From Actinomyces succiniciruminis (GTDB lineage Bacteria > Actinomycetota > Actinomycetes > Actinomycetales > Actinomycetaceae): a DNA stretch of 32,370 nucleotides. Shown one piece after another: positions 25,406 through 31,524 of the stretch. The stretch is taken from the NCBI RefSeq assembly GCF_900002405.1, contig NZ_LK995493.1:1-32370 (forward strand), read 5' to 3'. The notes beneath the pieces are model-generated. The model had not been told where the DNA came from, did not search any database, and saw nothing but the letters and a program-made list of their open reading frames with translations. Both the position numbers and the translations under genes were made by a program. Numbering within the stretch: position 1 is the first letter of the stretch; every line of letters starts with the position of its first letter.

Positions 25406-26260
25406 TCAGCGGGTGCGCGCCTCCACGCGCCGCGCCAGCGCGCCCAGCGCCCAGTTGATGAGTACGTAGAGCAACGCGATGATCACGTAGGCGGGCAGAT
25501 AGACGTCCAGGTGTGCGGTGACGCGTGCCGACGAGGTGAGCAGGCGTCCGGCGTACATCAGCTCCGTGTACGCGACCACATAACCCAGTGACGAGTCCTT
25601 GAGGATCGTCACCAGCTGAGTGATCAACGTGGGCAGCATTAGCCGCAGTGCCTGCGGTGCCAGCACCAGGCGCATCGTCTGGCCGGCGCTGAGTCCCAGC
25701 GCCTGGGCGGCCTCGGTCTGGCCGCGGTCCAGGGCGAGCACCCCGGAGCGGAAGACCTCCGCCGTCGTCGCCGAGGAGCACATGACAATTGGAACGGTGA
25801 GCATCCAGAAGGGAGACAGGGTGAGCCCCCAGCGCGGCACCGCCAGGAGGAAGAAGTAGATCAGCAGCAGCATGGGGACGGCACGCATGGCGTCGATCCA
25901 CGCTCCCACCGCGGACCGCAGCGCCGTCGAGCGGCTCATGCGTGCCCAGCCCAACAGGATGCCCAGGGGGAAGGACAGGGCGGCACCGACGGCGGTGACC
26001 AGCAGGGTGTCGGCCAGGGCGCGGCCGAGGTAACCGACCACCGACTGCCCCAGGAAGTAGCGCCACTTGGGGTAGGCGAGCTGGCCGGCCTGGCCGAGCT
26101 GGAACATAGCCGCTGCGGCGAGCGCCAGGACAATCAGGGTTACCAGCACCGATCCGATGAGGATGCGGCGCCGTCCCTTGGGACCCGGGGCGTCGAAGAG
26201 CAGATCGGCGTCGGTGGCGCCGGATGTGCGGGCGGGGGCGGGCGCGGTCAGGGCACTCAT
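25406..26260 (-). CDS. amino acid ABC transporter permease (second)
   Basis: A 284-residue inner-membrane subunit of a polar amino acid importer (HisM/GluD type). After a cytoplasmic lead of about 35 residues come five or so helices. The permease box reads EAAQALGLSAGQTMRLVLAP followed by QALRLMLPTLI, the EAA loop that docks on the ATPase. DSSLGYVVAYTELMYAGR is typical of the GluD/GltK branch. Its ATG overlaps the stop of the first permease (ATGA). Last gene of the four-gene importer. Confidence 0.92.
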   Translation of the reverse strand: MSALTAPAPARTSGATDADLLFDAPGPKGRRRILIGSVLVTLIVLALAAAAMFQLGQAGQLAYPKWRYFLGQSVVGYLGRALADTLLVTAVGAALSFPLGILLGWARMSRSTALRSAVGAWIDAMRAVPMLLLIYFFLLAVPRWGLTLSPFWMLTVPIVMCSSATTAEVFRSGVLALDRGQTEAAQALGLSAGQTMRLVLAPQALRLMLPTLITQLVTILKDSSLGYVVAYTELMYAGRLLTSSARVTAHLDVYLPAYVIIALLYVLINWALGALARRVEARTR

Positions 26261-26910
26261 GCGCGGGCCTCCCGTCCAGTGACGCGACGCTCGAGCAGGC
26301 CGCCGAGTTTGGTGGCCAGGAAGGCAATGGCCAGGTAGGTAAGTCCGGAGGTGAGGAAGGTGATCACCGCCTGCGCGTAGCGCAGGTTCAGCTGTTGGGT
26401 GACGTTGGTCAGCTCGGGCACGCCGATCGCGGCGGCCAGGGAGGAGCCGATCAGGCAGGAGATGAAGATGTTGACCAGTGGCTGAATGGTGCGGGCGAGC
26501 GCCTGCGGCAGCACCACCGCGGCGATGATCAGCCCGAAAGGCATGCCCAGGGCCCGAGCCGCCTCGATCTGGCCTTTGGACACGGAGTTGATGCCGGAGC
26601 GCACCGTCTCGCATACGAAGCCGGAGGCGGAGAACACGATGGCGGTGACGGCGGCGGCGAACAGGGACAGGGGCACGCCGGCCCGTGGCGCGGCGAAGGC
26701 GGCCAGGATCATCAGGCACAGGGTGGGGATGTTGCAGGCCACTGTCACCCAGGCGGTGCCGAGCGCGCGCAGCGGCGGGATCGGGCTGACGCGGAAGATT
26801 GCGATCACCGTGCCGACGACGAGCGCGCACGCGTAGCCGATGACGGCGATCGTCAGGGTCGTGACCAGCCCCTGGCCGAGCATGCCGAGGTTATCGGTGA
26901 TGACATTCAT
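26257..26910 (-). CDS. amino acid ABC transporter permease (first)
   Basis: A 217-residue permease of the same HisM/GluC family. NLGMLGQGLVTTLTIAVIGY opens the first helix. FVCETVRSGINSVSKGQIEA followed by ARALGMPFGLIIAAVVLPQA is the EAA loop, and SSLAAAIGVPELTN lies near the end. GGAGGAGG lies about 5 bases before the ATG at 26910. A hairpin stands immediately upstream, between this gene and the binding-protein gene. It would pair with the second permease as a heterodimer. Confidence 0.92.
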   Translation of the reverse strand: MNVITDNLGMLGQGLVTTLTIAVIGYACALVVGTVIAIFRVSPIPPLRALGTAWVTVACNIPTLCLMILAAFAAPRAGVPLSLFAAAVTAIVFSASGFVCETVRSGINSVSKGQIEAARALGMPFGLIIAAVVLPQALARTIQPLVNIFISCLIGSSLAAAIGVPELTNVTQQLNLRYAQAVITFLTSGLTYLAIAFLATKLGGLLERRVTGREARA

Positions 26911-26931
26911 GGGCACCTCCTCCGGAGCGTC

Positions 26932-26962
26932 GGGGCGGCCGCCTCGGGAGGCGGGCCGCCCC
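26932..26962 (-). terminator. intra-operon hairpin after the binding-protein gene
   Basis: GGGGCGGCC (26932-26940) pairs with GGCCGCCCC (26954-26962), and the inner GCCT/AGGC adds 4 bp with a one-base bulge. It lies between the binding-protein gene and the permeases, ahead of a strong ribosome site. Such hairpins commonly let binding protein be made in excess by partial termination or 3'-end protection. Confidence 0.6.
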
Positions 26963-27015: not shown

Positions 27016-28008
27016 TCAGTCGGTGGCCGCCGCGGTGGCGGCGTCCGTCTCGGAGCCGGGGACGGAGCCGATGGCGGGCGGCTCGGGTGCCTCGCCGCCG
27101 ATGATGGCGCCGATGGTGGCTGCCCAGATGGCGTTCCAGGTGCCGTCGTCGTAGATGGTCTGCAGGAAGGCGTTGACGAACTCCTGGGCGTCGGAGTCCT
27201 TGGGCAGGCCGATGCCGTAGGGGTCCTCGGTGAAGGGGTCGCCGACGATTTTGACGGCGTCGTTGGACTGCACCTCGCTGAGTTCGAGGGACTGGTCGAC
27301 GACGTATGCGTCCACCTGGCCGGCCTCGAGGGCGGCGACGCAGCTGGCGTGGTCGGTGAACTGGACCTGCTCCGCCTCCGGGGCGGCCTCATCCAGGGCG
27401 GGGCCGGAGGAGGAGTTGGACTGGACGGCGACCTTTACGCCGGCCAGGTCGTCAACGCCGTTGATTTCAGAGTCGTCGGCGCGCACCAGGACGGACTGGC
27501 CCGAGGAGTAGTAGGGGCCGGCGAAGGAGATCTTCTCGGCGCGCTCGGGGGTAATCGTGTAGGTGGCGAAGACCGCGTCCACCTGTCCGTTCTCGATCAT
27601 GGTCTCGCGGGTGTCGGAGGTGACCTGGGTGACCTCCAGCAGGGAGCGGGCGTCGTCCCCGCCGATGATGTAGCGGGCCAAGACCTGAGCGAGGGCGGCG
27701 TCGAAGCCGGTGATCTCGCCGGTGGCGGGGTCCTCCAGGGAGAACACCTCGGAGGTCTTGGTACCGCCGGTCTTCAGCACGCCCGCCTCCTTGACGGCCG
27801 ATGCCCAGGTGGATGCGGCGACGACATCATCCGCGGCGACGGGTCCGGAGTTGATGACGGTGTTGTAGTCCGCACCGGAGGAGGCGGAGGCGTCGACCGC
27901 CTGGCCGTCGGCGCCGGTGTCGGCGCAAGCCGCCAGCACGGCGGCGATCGAGGCGGCGCCGGCGGCGGTCAGCAGGCCGCGGCGAGACAGGCCGGGAAGA
28001 ACAGACAT
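27016..28008 (-). CDS. amino acid ABC transporter substrate-binding lipoprotein
   Basis: A 330-residue extracytoplasmic binding protein. SRRGLL followed by a hydrophobic stretch and the lipobox LAAC (Cys28) mark a lipoprotein signal, possibly Tat-type because of the twin Arg. The mature part is SBP family 3: ITGFDAALAQVLARYI, then FATYTITPERAEKISFAGPYY, and VKVAVQSNSSSGPAL. This is the GluB-like branch, but the ligand cannot be read; the leader peptide upstream hints at a sulfur amino acid. A Ser/Ala-rich linker follows the Cys. AAAGGAA precedes the ATG. Confidence 0.92.
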   Translation of the reverse strand: MSVLPGLSRRGLLTAAGAASIAAVLAACADTGADGQAVDASASSGADYNTVINSGPVAADDVVAASTWASAVKEAGVLKTGGTKTSEVFSLEDPATGEITGFDAALAQVLARYIIGGDDARSLLEVTQVTSDTRETMIENGQVDAVFATYTITPERAEKISFAGPYYSSGQSVLVRADDSEINGVDDLAGVKVAVQSNSSSGPALDEAAPEAEQVQFTDHASCVAALEAGQVDAYVVDQSLELSEVQSNDAVKIVGDPFTEDPYGIGLPKDSDAQEFVNAFLQTIYDDGTWNAIWAATIGAIIGGEAPEPPAIGSVPGSETDAATAAATD

Positions 28009-28065: not shown

Positions 28066-28833
28066 TCAGTGGCTGAGCACCTTGGACAGGAAGTCACGGG
28101 CGCGCTCGGTGCGCGGGGCGGCGAAGAACTCGGCGGGTGCGCCGAGCTCGACGATCTGGCCGCCGTCCATGAATGCGACGCGGTCGGCGACGGAGCGGGC
28201 GAAGCCCATCTCGTGGGTAACCACGAGCATGGTCATGCCCTCGGCGGCCAGGTCCTTGATGACGTCGAGGACCTCGTTGATCATCTCCGGGTCCAGGGCG
28301 GAGGTGGGCTCGTCGAAGAGCATGATCTTCGGGTCCATCGCCAGGGCGCGGGCGATCGCGACCCGCTGCTGCTGGCCACCGGACAGCTGCGGCGGGCGCT
28401 TGGCGGCCTGGTCGGCGAGCCCCACGCGCTCGAGTAGCTGGCGGGCGCGGGCCTCGGCGTCGGCCTTGGGCACCTTGCGCACGCGGGTGGGCGCGAGGGT
28501 GATGTTGTCCAGCACCGTGCGGTGCGGGAACAGGTTGAAGGACTGGAAGACCATGCCCACCTCGGCGCGCAGGCGGGCCAGTTCGCGCCCCTCCTCGGGC
28601 AGGAGTTCGCCGTCGATCTCAATGGTGCCGGACTGGATCGTCTCGAGCCGGTTGATGGTGCGGCACAGGGTGGATTTGCCGGAGCCGGAGGCGCCGATGA
28701 CGGCGACCACCTCACCGCGGTGAATGTCCAGCGAGACGTCGTCAAGCGCCTTGAAGTCGCCGTAGTACTTGCTGACGTGGTTGATGCGCACGAGTGGGCG
28801 CTCAGGGATGGAAGGGTTGGCGGGAGCAGGCAT
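28066..28833 (-). CDS. amino acid ABC transporter ATP-binding protein
   Basis: A 255-residue ATPase of the HisP/GlnQ/GluA class, first gene of the importer. Walker A is GASGSGKST (47-55), the Q-loop is MVFQSFNLF, the signature is LSGGQQQR, Walker B is [12 protein letters not shown] and the switch is [17 protein letters not shown] stands before the ATG. The stop of a putative polycysteine leader peptide lies 53 bases upstream, so translation of this gene is probably what the leader controls. Gene order ATPase, binding protein, permease, permease is that of gluABCD in Corynebacterium. Confidence 0.94.
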
Positions 28834-28886
28834 AGGAGCCTCTTCTCGTATTAAAGGGTTAAAGGGCGAATGGGACTGGGGCTGCC

Positions 28887-28922
28887 TCAGCGACAGCTAC
28901 AGCAACACATTCGCATGACCAC
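28887..28922 (-). CDS. putative polycysteine leader peptide ([11 protein letters not shown])
   Basis: An 11-codon frame with four Cys codons in five positions, ending in TGA at 28887-28889. GGAGGG (28928-28933) is 5 bases before the GTG start at 28920-28922; an in-frame ATG at 28914-28916 gives MRMCCCSCR. The frame is too short for a gene track yet has one of the best ribosome sites in the region. GCTGTC/GGCAGC could fold across its stop codon. Polycysteine upstream frames are known in mycobacteria to make downstream sulfur genes respond to cysteine supply, where stalling at Cys codons opens the next ribosome site. I infer the same type of control here over the ABC importer. Confidence 0.6.
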
Positions 28923-28993
28923 TGTTTCCCTCCGGTTCGGATTCGCGGCGCCCGACCGCAATCCGGGTGGACCGCACGGTGCTCGCCGGACGC

Positions 28994-29002
28994 ACAGTAG
29001 CA
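28994..29002 (-). promoter_or_regulatory. possible importer promoter, extended -10
   Basis: TGCTACTGT on the minus strand fits an extended -10 (TGnTAnnnT), about 60 bases before the leader peptide's ribosome site. No good -35 was found at 16-18 bases. Confidence 0.35.
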
Positions 29003-29045
29003 CTCGAGCCCTGGGAACAGGTGCGCTGGTATCCAGCATTCGGGC

Positions 29046-29088
29046 GTGCTGGGAGCAGCATCACAGCACCGTCTCGGTGGTTGAGACG
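29046..29088 (-). terminator. paired hairpins after the SpoU methylase gene
   Basis: Two adjacent stems: CGTCTC/GAGACG (29070-29075 with 29083-29088, 7-base loop) and GTGCTG/CAGCAC (29046-29051 with 29064-29069, 12-base loop). They start 14 bases after the methylase stop and separate it from the importer. No U-run. Confidence 0.45.
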
Positions 29089-29101
29089 CGGCTCGACGCG
29101 C

Positions 29102-30013
29102 TTAACCGAGTTGCTGCGCCCGGGCGCTGGCGTATAGGCAGATGGCAGCGGCGGAGGCGACGTTCAGGGACTCGGCCCGCCCGTAGATGGGGATCGAGAC
29201 GACCGTGTCCGCCGCCTCCCGGGCCGCAGGCGCCAGCCCGTGGGCCTCGTTGCCCAACAGCCAGGCCGACGGCGCCGCCAGCTCCGCCTCTGCGTCGAAC
29301 AGGCTCACGGTGCCGTGCCCGTCGGCGGCCAGCAGCCTCAGCCCTGCCGCCCGCAGTGCCCGCACAGCGTCCGACAGTTCGACGCCGGCCAACACCGGTA
29401 GGTGGAACAGGGAGCCGGCCGTGGCGCGCACGACCTTTGGGTTCGTCGGATCCACGCTCCCCTTGACAAGCACGACGGCGTCGGCGCCTGCGGCGTCGGC
29501 GGCGCGAATGATGGTGCCCGCGTTCCCCGGGTCCTGAGCCTCGGTGAGCACCGCCACTAGGCGGGCCCCGGAAAGGGCCGCCGCCAGGGTGGAATCGGAG
29601 GGGAACCCTGCCTCGCTCCCGACGGTGTCGGCCTCCGTGCCGGCAGAAGCCGACTCGGTTCCTCCCCCGCCGGTCCCCGTCTCCGGTGGCGCCGCCACAG
29701 CCTCGGCTGCAACGACGGCGAGCACGCCCTGGGCGTCGGCGCTCATGGCGCGCATGACCTCGGGGGTCACCAGGTGGGTGTAAAGCCCGGCGGAAGCGGC
29801 GGCGTCGGCAATTTCGGCGTGAGCCCGAGCCGCCTCCTCGGTGAAGTAGGCGTCGAGCACATGCCCGGCGGCGTAGTTGACGGCCTCTCGCACGCCCTGC
29901 GGCCCCTCCACCACGAAGCGCCGGTACTTGCTGCGGGCGGCGCGACGGGCCAGTCCGGCCACGCGGGTAATGCGGGTGGCCGTGGGATTGTTCAGGATCG
30001 CGCTCGTGCTCAT
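29102..30013 (-). CDS. SpoU/TrmH-family RNA 2'-O-methyltransferase
   Basis: A 303-residue knotted (SPOUT) methyltransferase that modifies rRNA or tRNA ribose with SAM. Motif 1 is DPGNAGTIIRAADAAGAD with the Asn-Gly pair, motif 2 is AWLLGNEAHGL and motif 3 is IPIYGRAESLNVASAAAICLYA. The N-terminal part (KYRRFVVEGPQGVREAV) is the L30e-like substrate-binding domain. A Gly/Glu/Thr-rich linker near residues 118-145 joins the domains. The ATG at 30013 is chosen because the domain begins soon after; its ribosome site is weak. It follows rplT as tsnR does in other actinobacteria. Confidence 0.9.
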   Translation of the reverse strand: MSTSAILNNPTATRITRVAGLARRAARSKYRRFVVEGPQGVREAVNYAAGHVLDAYFTEEAARAHAEIADAAASAGLYTHLVTPEVMRAMSADAQGVLAVVAAEAVAAPPETGTGGGGTESASAGTEADTVGSEAGFPSDSTLAAALSGARLVAVLTEAQDPGNAGTIIRAADAAGADAVVLVKGSVDPTNPKVVRATAGSLFHLPVLAGVELSDAVRALRAAGLRLLAADGHGTVSLFDAEAELAAPSAWLLGNEAHGLAPAAREAADTVVSIPIYGRAESLNVASAAAICLYASARAQQLG

Positions 30014-30153: not shown

Positions 30154-30534
30154 TCAGGCCTTGGGGGCGTTGACGTCCGCGGGTAGCGCCTTGCGGGCGG
30201 TCTCGACCAGCGCCTTGAAGGCGGCGGGCTCATTGACGGCCAGTTCGGCGAGCATGCGACGGTCAACCTCCACGCCGGCCAGGCCGAGGCCCTGGATGAA
30301 CCGGTTGTAGGTCATGCCCTCGGCGCGAGCGGCGGCATTGATGCGCTGAATCCACAGGCGACGGAAGTCGCCCTTGCGCGCGCGGCGGTCGCGGAAGGCG
30401 TATACGCCGGAGTGGGTGACCTGCTCCTTGGCCTTGCGGTACAGGCGGGAACGCTGACCGCGGTAGCCGGAGGCCCGGTCGAGGACGGTACGACGCTTCT
30501 TCTGGGCGTTAACAGCCCGCTTCACACGTGCCAT
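30154..30534 (-). CDS. rplT: 50S ribosomal protein L20
   Basis: Early-assembly protein of the large subunit that binds 23S rRNA. The 126 residues start [19 protein letters not shown], with the basic N-terminal extension, and contain [20 protein letters not shown] and the C-terminal globular part [23 protein letters not shown] is a strong ribosome site before the ATG. It follows rpmI by about 30 bases. In other bacteria L20 represses its own operon; no L20 site could be identified here. Confidence 0.98.
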
Positions 30535-30564
30535 GTGATGACTCCTTTAAGTGTTATGGGCCGG

Positions 30565-30759
30565 TCAGCGACCGAGCAGCCTCTTGACCTGGCGGGCGTC
30601 GGCCGGGGAGACGGCCTGGTCCTTGGACAGCCTGCGCTTGCGGCGGGAGGACTTGACCTCCAGCAGGTGGCGCTTACCGGCCTGCTCGCGCATGAGCTTG
30701 CCGCTGCCGGTGACCCGGAAGCGCTTCTTGGCACCGGAGTGCGTCTTGTTCTTCGGCAT
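30565..30759 (-). CDS. rpmI: 50S ribosomal protein L35
   Basis: A 64-residue, very basic protein of the large subunit, beginning [20 protein letters not shown], which is nearly invariant in the family. AGGAAA precedes the ATG. It lies between infC and rplT, 117 bases after infC. Confidence 0.98.
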
Positions 30760-30876
30760 GTTTATTTCCTCATTCTCGGTCCCCGGCGCCGCTTGGGTCG
30801 GGGGCTGCGGACCTCGTCGGGTGACGGGGCTGGGTCGTGACGTACCCGCCGGCGGCGGGCTGGTGCTGGGGCGCTG

Positions 30877-31524
30877 TTACTCGCCCCCGCTCGCCGCCTC
30901 GGCGGCCTTCGCCTCCGCCTTGGCCTCGCGGGCCGCCTTGGCGGCCTGCTTCTCGGCGCGGCGGCTGGCGCGTGCCGCCTCGCGGCGACGGCGCTGGTCG
31001 GACTTGACCTCCGCCTTCTTGCGGGTGGGAGCCAGGACCATGACCATGTTGCGGCCGTCCTGACGGGGGTGGGACTCGATGGTGCCCAGCTCGGAGACCT
31101 CCTCGGCTACGCGCTGGAGCAGCCGAATACCCAGCTCCGGGCGGGACTGCTCGCGTCCGCGGAAGCGGACGATGCACTTGACCTTGTCCCCGCCCTTGAG
31201 GAAGCGCTCGACGTGCCCCATCTTGGTGGCGTAGTCGTGCTCGTCGATCTTGGGGCGGAACTGGATCTCCTTGAGCTGGGTGTTGGCCTGGTTGCGCCGG
31301 GCGTCGCGTGCCTTCATGGCCGACTCGTACTTGAACTTGCCGTAGTCCATGAGCCGGCACACCGGGGGGCGTGCGTCGGGAGCGACCTCTACGAGGTCGA
31401 GACCTGCCTCTTCGGCCAGGCGGAGAGCGTCCTCCACCCGGACAATGCCGACCTGCTCACCGCTGGGGCCGACAAGTCGCACCTCGGGGACGCGGATCCG
31501 TTCGTTGATACGGGGCTCGCTGAT
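30877..31524 (-). CDS. infC: translation initiation factor IF-3, AUC start
   Basis: Binds the 30S subunit, prevents premature joining with 50S and checks the start codon. The protein begins [20 protein letters not shown], the conserved N-domain, goes through [13 protein letters not shown] and the linker, and ends in an Ala/Lys/Glu-rich tail of about 35 residues (coiled or disordered) that many IF3s lack. An in-frame TGA lies four codons before the conserved start and no ATG/GTG is available, so the start must be ATC at 31522-31524, with GAGGA 6 bases before it. Rare AUU/AUC starts are known in infC and let IF3 repress its own translation. Length is 215 residues. Confidence 0.93.

Follow-up and report, generated by a model that had tools for sequence, protein, structure and literature searches.

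A cysteine-codon leader with a conserved RNA hairpin ahead of two ABC importers in Actinomyces

The window analysed here is a stretch of 32,370 nucleotides from Actinomyces succiniciruminis (contig NZ_LK995493.1, positions 1 to 32,370), and our subject is a short leader frame with several Cys codons that lies on its minus strand ahead of a four-gene ATP-binding cassette (ABC) importer. The leader is confirmed as a real feature, a point that its conservation among relatives settles. It shares an RNA hairpin with the spacer that follows, and leader and hairpin are conserved together ahead of two importers, the one in the window (class 1) and a second one found elsewhere in the same genome (class 2). 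We consider it probable that the element is a cysteine-sensing leader-peptide attenuator of a kind already known in actinobacteria; our best reading is that it differs from the known ones in being led by a Shine-Dalgarno site, in being structured and in controlling importers. That the leader is translated, that the ribosome stalls, in which direction the response goes and how the hairpin acts on expression are all inferred from sequence. A first-pass annotation of this DNA had described a polycysteine leader peptide that senses cysteine in front of an importer of cysteine, cystine or another sulfur amino acid. That interpretation as a whole is partly supported, and the hairpin, a conserved promoter-like element and the presence of such a leader at a second importer of this genome go beyond it.

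The leader frame and its conservation

The frame occupies positions 28922-28887 of the minus strand, to which the coordinates of the leader and importer parts given below also refer, and was read directly as GTG-GTC-ATG-CGA-ATG-TGT-TGC-TGT-AGC-TGT-CGC-TGA. It has 11 codons and a GTG start, and its stop codon (28889-28887) is followed by 53 bases up to the ATPase ATG at 28833. A GGAGGG Shine-Dalgarno site (28928..28933) stands 5 bases before the GTG, and the ATPase gene has a ribosome site of its own, GAAGAGG (28839..28845), both read directly. This is the layout that the first-pass annotation had given, and all of its parts are present. By eye, GGAGG-like sites occupy the same place as the leader's Shine-Dalgarno in the class-1 rows of alignment A1, a wide alignment of 41 sequences from both classes. 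Four Cys in five codons had been thought unlikely to arise by chance, and the simulation agrees: frames of at most 15 codons with this property number one in the window, the leader itself, and four in 400 simulated windows (first-order Markov, whole window, both strands, 400 runs).

Upstream of the leader lies TGCTACTGT (28994..29002), which probably serves the leader transcript as an extended -10 promoter element; this role is suggested by the conservation of TGNTANNNT, which 40 of the 41 leader loci examined have at a distance of 69-168 bases upstream of the core. The element ends about 70 bases before the leader start codon; no full sigma-70 promoter match was found. Since a Shine-Dalgarno site is present and the putative promoter implies a 5' untranslated stretch, the leader is probably not leaderless.

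The conservation of the leader was analysed in 37 genomes of the same genus, in which class-1 importers were located by homology of the binding protein (E<=1e-40), blind to the leader. The importer was found in 31 of the 37, and in 25 of these 31 a polycysteine leader lies ahead of the ATPase; the expected conservation of the Cys codons together with the importer was seen in these 25 genomes and failed in the other six, which are discussed below. The nearest named relatives, with binding proteins 90-94% identical, are A. ruminis, A. ruminicola and A. glycerinitolerans. A class-1 leader was counted only if it had three consecutive TGY codons, and the Cys conservation is to that extent true by definition. 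Ten further genomes (G200-G208, G210) with the importer behind the leader were found by pattern or model search, and their addition gives 35 leaders for 41 known class-1 importers, a figure biased towards the leader by the way in which these ten genomes entered. In G208 (L189), the frame of the binding-protein gene is apparently truncated or frameshifted in the assembly, and the leader is intact.

An RNA hairpin shared with a second importer

The codons of the leader form one side of a hairpin with two helices. In the window, the outer helix P1 pairs the 5' arm GCGAATG of the Arg-Met codons (28908..28914) with the 3' arm CATTCGC in the spacer (28866..28872), while the inner helix P2 pairs GCTGTC (28892..28897), which takes in the end of the Ser codon, the whole of the last Cys codon and the beginning of the Arg codon, with GGCAGC directly behind the stop codon (28881..28886). 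The same arrangement, with the Arg-Met codons paired to the spacer 3' of the stop and the last Cys-Arg codons paired just behind it, holds in both classes, and the stop codon sits in the loop of P2 in most leaders, including that of the window. P1 comes from RNAalifold on alignments A2 and A3 and from pair counts, and P2 from folding and from RNAalifold on A2. With no structure given to it, RNAalifold recovered P1/P2 both in A2, a selection of 20 sequences that represents the two classes (-14.9 kcal/mol), and in A3, 24 class-2 sequences (-24.7 kcal/mol).

The pairs of the two helices change together. Of the 20 sequences in A2, 9 have G-C in place of the A-U pair of P1 and 3 have U-A in place of its C-G pair; at the outermost P2 pair that was counted, 16 have C-G and 4 have G-C. 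The covariation score of A1 is 0.182 versus 0.142 +/- 0.007 in shuffled alignments, a value that none of 500 shuffles reaches, and is at most 0.091 when the partner is slid; A3 scores 0.124 versus 0.105 shuffled and at most 0.082 slid, and all five of its measures exceed all 500 shuffles. When the leader-spacer folds of 19 clusters were summed, none of 20000 spacer permutations reached the real value; for the outer arms alone, 48 of 20000 did. Three genomes count against the hairpin: in G191, G197 and G200 the fold is no better than with shuffled spacers. The hairpin is conserved with compensatory changes and belongs to the leader. Class 2 (L135-L158) has an additional conserved hairpin, P3 (GAGCGC/GCGCTC), with 97.8% of its cells paired, downstream of P1 and before the importer ribosome site.

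The second importer emerged from the strict leader pattern, which occurs at 40 places in 37 of the 49 genus genomes, with 0 for the reversed-pattern control. Seven of the 40 places precede a different operon, encoding two permeases and a binding protein of the Opp/Dpp type with an ATPase behind. This class-2 operon is present in 24 of the 49 genomes (permease homology, E<=1e-80), and all 24 are preceded by a leader built in the same way, which has 2-5 Cys codons; at least three Cys are found in 23 of these leaders and two in one (G156). The genome of the window has its class-2 locus on another contig (G000:C29), where the leader reads MLATRMCCCCR. The class-2 binding protein has the glutathione protein GsiB as its top NCBIfam match, far under the cut-off at 76 of 594 bits.

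A covariance model of leader and hairpin, R1, was built from 20 training sequences, one of which is that of the window, and its match there delimits the whole element (28865..28934; 82.4 bits, E 3.3e-17). The range search with R1 covered the family (213 genomes) and gave 61 matches at E<=0.01, all 20 training sequences among them, in 42 genomes that all belong to this genus: 35 matches lie before the first importer, 24 before the second, one before a sugar-type ABC operon, and one, in G205 (E 0.003), looks chance-like by eye. In the rest of the family, 164 genomes from 35 genera, there were 0 matches, with strict filters that lose weak ones. The match before the sugar-type operon (L190, G038:C1:2195587-2195661, E 8.7e-4) contains the 11-codon frame MPMGMHCRCCR, and a PIG-L deacetylase and a family-4 glycosidase are encoded further along; this operon is a possible third target of the leader.

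Other runs of Cys codons were also inspected. The genome of the window has seven such sites, six of which were judged by eye not to be leaders of this kind, the seventh being the leader itself. A looser pattern, whose reversed control also gave matches, was found at 67 places in the 213 family genomes: 33 class-1 leaders, 8 class-2 leaders and 26 places that are neither. Six of the seven examined among these 26, all in other genera, lack the Arg-Met-Cys build; the Cys-run place L129, in another genus, can be read as another short frame. The seventh, in this genus, is the Cys-rich short frame L125 (G193:C2, minus strand), which was rejected as a leader and is instead a candidate precursor of a thiazole/oxazole-modified peptide. 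It precedes genes for a SagD-type cyclodehydratase (TIGR03604, 301 bits), for a dehydrogenase of the SagB type and for a precursor-binding protein.

The proposed mechanism and its alternatives

We read the element as an attenuator because its regulatory codons lie just before the stop and within one strand of a conserved structure. A ribosome would start at the leader's own Shine-Dalgarno site and meet several Cys codons (four in the window) just before the stop. When Cys-tRNA is ample, it would finish and leave, and the leader RNA would close into P1/P2, whose 5' strand consists of the codons just read; when Cys-tRNA is scarce, it would stall on the Cys codons and cover the 5' arm of P1, the hairpin would stay open, and the importer genes would be expressed. 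By the logic of supply and demand, it is cysteine shortage that should switch the importers on, and since the sister element ahead of the oligopeptide-type importer has the same leader and hairpin, the two importers may form a small cysteine-starvation regulon. The suggestion of the first-pass annotation that the leader senses cysteine is retained as most likely, by way of charged Cys-tRNA, with the conserved leader speaking for it and the six importers that have none speaking against it.

In class 2, the step from hairpin to expression is probably an unmasking of the importer ribosome site, since the start region of the leader can pair with that site; in the genome of the window, the pairing seen by eye is between ACCTCACAT and ATGTGAGGT. 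The pairing of each class-2 start region with its own ribosome site beats that of swapped partners (15 of 20000 permutations, 7 clusters). With a ribosome mask placed at the first Cys codon, opening of the site becomes easier by more than 1 kcal/mol in 12 of the 24 loci and harder in 2, and in the genome of the window the predicted cost falls from 13.8 to 8.8 kcal/mol. For the leader of the window itself, in class 1, the corresponding costs are 8.7 and 8.4 kcal/mol. Possible candidates for the last step in class 1 are ribosome-site unmasking, translational coupling and Rho-dependent termination, the last of which has been suggested for other actinobacterial cys leaders in the passages of PMC1262725 cited here. 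Two folding tests gave no support to unmasking of the ATPase ribosome site as the class-1 mechanism, and the translational coupling to which the first-pass annotation refers is not supported either, simple folding tests giving no consistent unmasking of that site.

Several results weigh against the attenuator and are brought together here. Six of the 31 class-1 importers found by homology (G003, G038, G131, G145, G162, G180) have no polycysteine frame; by eye, G038 (L019) and G145 (L026) have a diverged short frame, RRCRGCR, upstream of the importer ATPase, with two Cys and with Arg codons replacing most Cys codons. Codon 4 of the five codons of the Cys stretch is not Cys in 14 of 33 class-1 leaders. 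The last Cys codon, inside helix P2, is the sole one present in all 24 class-2 leaders, and the other Cys positions are Arg, Trp, Ser, Tyr, Gly or Thr in 14 of them. RNAalifold on A1 gave a weak 4-pair helix in place of the hairpin, which we attribute to indels that misalign the two classes in that alignment, and two of the five measures on A1, both-side pair changes and pair types, are not above shuffles (130 and 221 of 500). The ribosome mask at the first Cys codon makes opening easier in 6 of 34 class-1 loci and harder in 4, class-1 start regions do not pair better with their own ribosome sites than with swapped ones (4530 of 20000 permutations, 11 clusters), and a shorter masking test on both classes gave 15 easier and 15 harder cases among 41. 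No intrinsic terminator hairpin with a T run was found between 28780 and 29110. Lastly, the serine acetyltransferase gene cysE is over the cut-off in 47 of the 49 genus genomes, from which it follows that the genus does not simply live on cysteine taken up from outside; an explanation by cysteine auxotrophy was dropped on this ground, and uptake probably adds to cysteine synthesis rather than replacing it.

The invariant class-2 codon bears on an alternative that we regard as unlikely, namely that conservation acts on the RNA hairpin alone, as an element that binds a protein or a metabolite, and that its sequence produces the Cys codons largely as a by-product. The hairpin is conserved and covaries, the Cys codon kept in every class-2 leader lies in P2 while several leaders have Arg for the other Cys codons, and the bases of the class-1 Cys stretch are conserved beyond the codon level. 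As the search definition partly dictates that Cys codons 1-3 are constant in class 1, and the constant class-2 Cys lies in P2, we gave the attenuator less weight and the hairpin by itself more. A hairpin alone fits poorly with a frame that is kept, as shown by differences of 3 or 6 bases in the distance from Arg-Met to the stop codon; core lengths are 21 and 24 bases in class 2, 18 in G158 and 21 in G208, in searches that required an open frame, which all 24 class-2 loci have. The start codon and the Shine-Dalgarno site are kept as well, 23 of the 24 class-2 leaders have their three or more Cys, and no Rfam family is matched, the Rfam covariance models giving 0 matches up to E 1 across 28700-29120.

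From the first base of the leader stop codon to the next ribosome site there are 35-59 bases, which is long for re-initiation. This distance argues against another explanation, that the leader is translated and boosts translation of the importer by re-initiation without any sensing of cysteine, which we hold to be quite improbable; it would not need the Cys run and leaves the hairpin unexplained. The leader does have a good ribosome site, and it has been proposed in the literature that some leader genes increase the translation of what lies behind them (PMC4833913). Arg codons, on the other hand, flank the Cys codons and in some lineages replace them, as in the class-2 leader MTRRMRCRRCR and in ...TRRCRGCR..., from which one could suppose that arginine or general starvation is the signal. 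We give this scarcely any credence: the Arg codons that stay constant belong to P1 and P2, and the class-2 leaders with at least three Cys (23 of 24) speak for cysteine.

The cysteine attenuator may also be stated in a fuller form, which we put forward tentatively and at somewhat less than even chances. The element would be a dedicated RNA, seen to date in this genus alone, whose Cys codons make up one covarying hairpin together with the stop codon and the spacer, before two, perhaps three, unrelated ABC importers; it would govern an uptake regulon for cysteine starvation that works without a regulatory protein, with the class-2 start region masking the ribosome site and the stalled ribosome acting as the opener.

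Known systems, the importer and its cargo

Leaders with runs of Cys codons have a history in related bacteria. In mycobacteria, the polycysteine leaderless short open reading frames of Canestrari et al. 2020 (doi 10.1111/mmi.14498) are said to be read at a cysteine-dependent ribosome speed that decides downstream expression. The Actinomyces leader is like them in being a short upstream frame of contiguous Cys codons before an operon. It is unlike them in having a Shine-Dalgarno site and in probably not being leaderless, if the transcript starts where the putative promoter element would place it, and also in its covarying hairpin across the Cys codons and its two importer targets. The mycobacterial frames are described as cysteine-responsive attenuators in the passages of PMC9031893, PMC9094748, PMC13236596 and PMC13091356 that cite Canestrari et al. 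2020.

A prediction of Cys-run leader peptides dates from 2005 and concerned the cys operons of Mycobacterium and P. acnes and the cbs gene of B. longum, which such leaders precede, and the mycobacterial cys regions appear in that account without conserved terminator hairpins (PMC1262725, in the sections used here). According to the same sections, these leaders resemble ours in having Cys runs near the stop codon and no intrinsic terminator, and differ from it in that the Actinomyces element has a conserved hairpin and importers as targets. The LEU element upstream of leuA in Actinobacteria, as outlined in that source, likewise has a run of leader codons inside a conserved RNA structure; its leucine codons pair with a downstream Shine-Dalgarno box, whereas the codon region in Actinomyces pairs with the spacer (PMC1262725). 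Leaders with Cys codons were known before for the cysteine-making genes of related bacteria, and importer targets would be new. We found no description of this leader in Actinomyces in the literature searched, which takes in a minority of the subscription journals.

The importer behind the leader consists of an ATPase (28066..28833; PF00005), a substrate-binding lipoprotein (27016..28008; PF00497, family-3), permease 1 (26257..26946; PF00528) and permease 2 (25406..26245; PF00528). Among the best 25 of 191 NCBIfam families, the ATPase matches EhuA with 326, GlnQ with 313 and TcyN with 297 bits, all under cut-off. Permease 2 matches EhuD with 103 of 205 bits. The first-pass annotation had taken this to be in reality an importer of cysteine, cystine or another sulfur amino acid, a claim that the protein families do not bear out: the cystine/cysteine models stay under cut-off (TcyN 297 of 406 bits, within the same best 25 of 191 families; PRK11260 82 of 312; and the cystine permease PRK15100, the top match of permease 1, 113 of 300). 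The closest Protein Data Bank (PDB) relatives of the binding protein are of the Glu/Asp type, with Mycobacterium tuberculosis (Mtb) GlnH (6h1u) as the best match, followed by a glutamate-type binder (5eyf) and PEB1a (2v25, named major cell-binding factor). Residue 134, the Arg of DTRET, aligns with an Arg in all three structures and is present in 41 of 41 orthologues examined; we take it to hold the acidic side chain of the ligand. Cystine, which has two carboxylates, or another ligand of that type is possible. The importer is like the polar amino acid importers with GlnH/PEB1a-like binders in having an ATPase, a family-3 binding protein and two permeases, and unlike them in its putative cysteine-responsive leader.

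On its other side, the leader adjoins a SpoU-family rRNA-methylase-like gene (PF00588, end at 29102). Genes resembling those of ribosomal proteins L20 and L35 and of initiation factor IF-3 were noticed by eye at 30154-31482, on the minus strand.

If the attenuator reading is true, ribosome-based cysteine attenuation would extend from the biosynthesis genes of mycobacteria to nutrient uptake in Actinomyces, and the two importers would gain a likely physiological role, a response to cysteine shortage, that their family names hide. The covarying RNA structure would make the mechanism directly testable by point changes.
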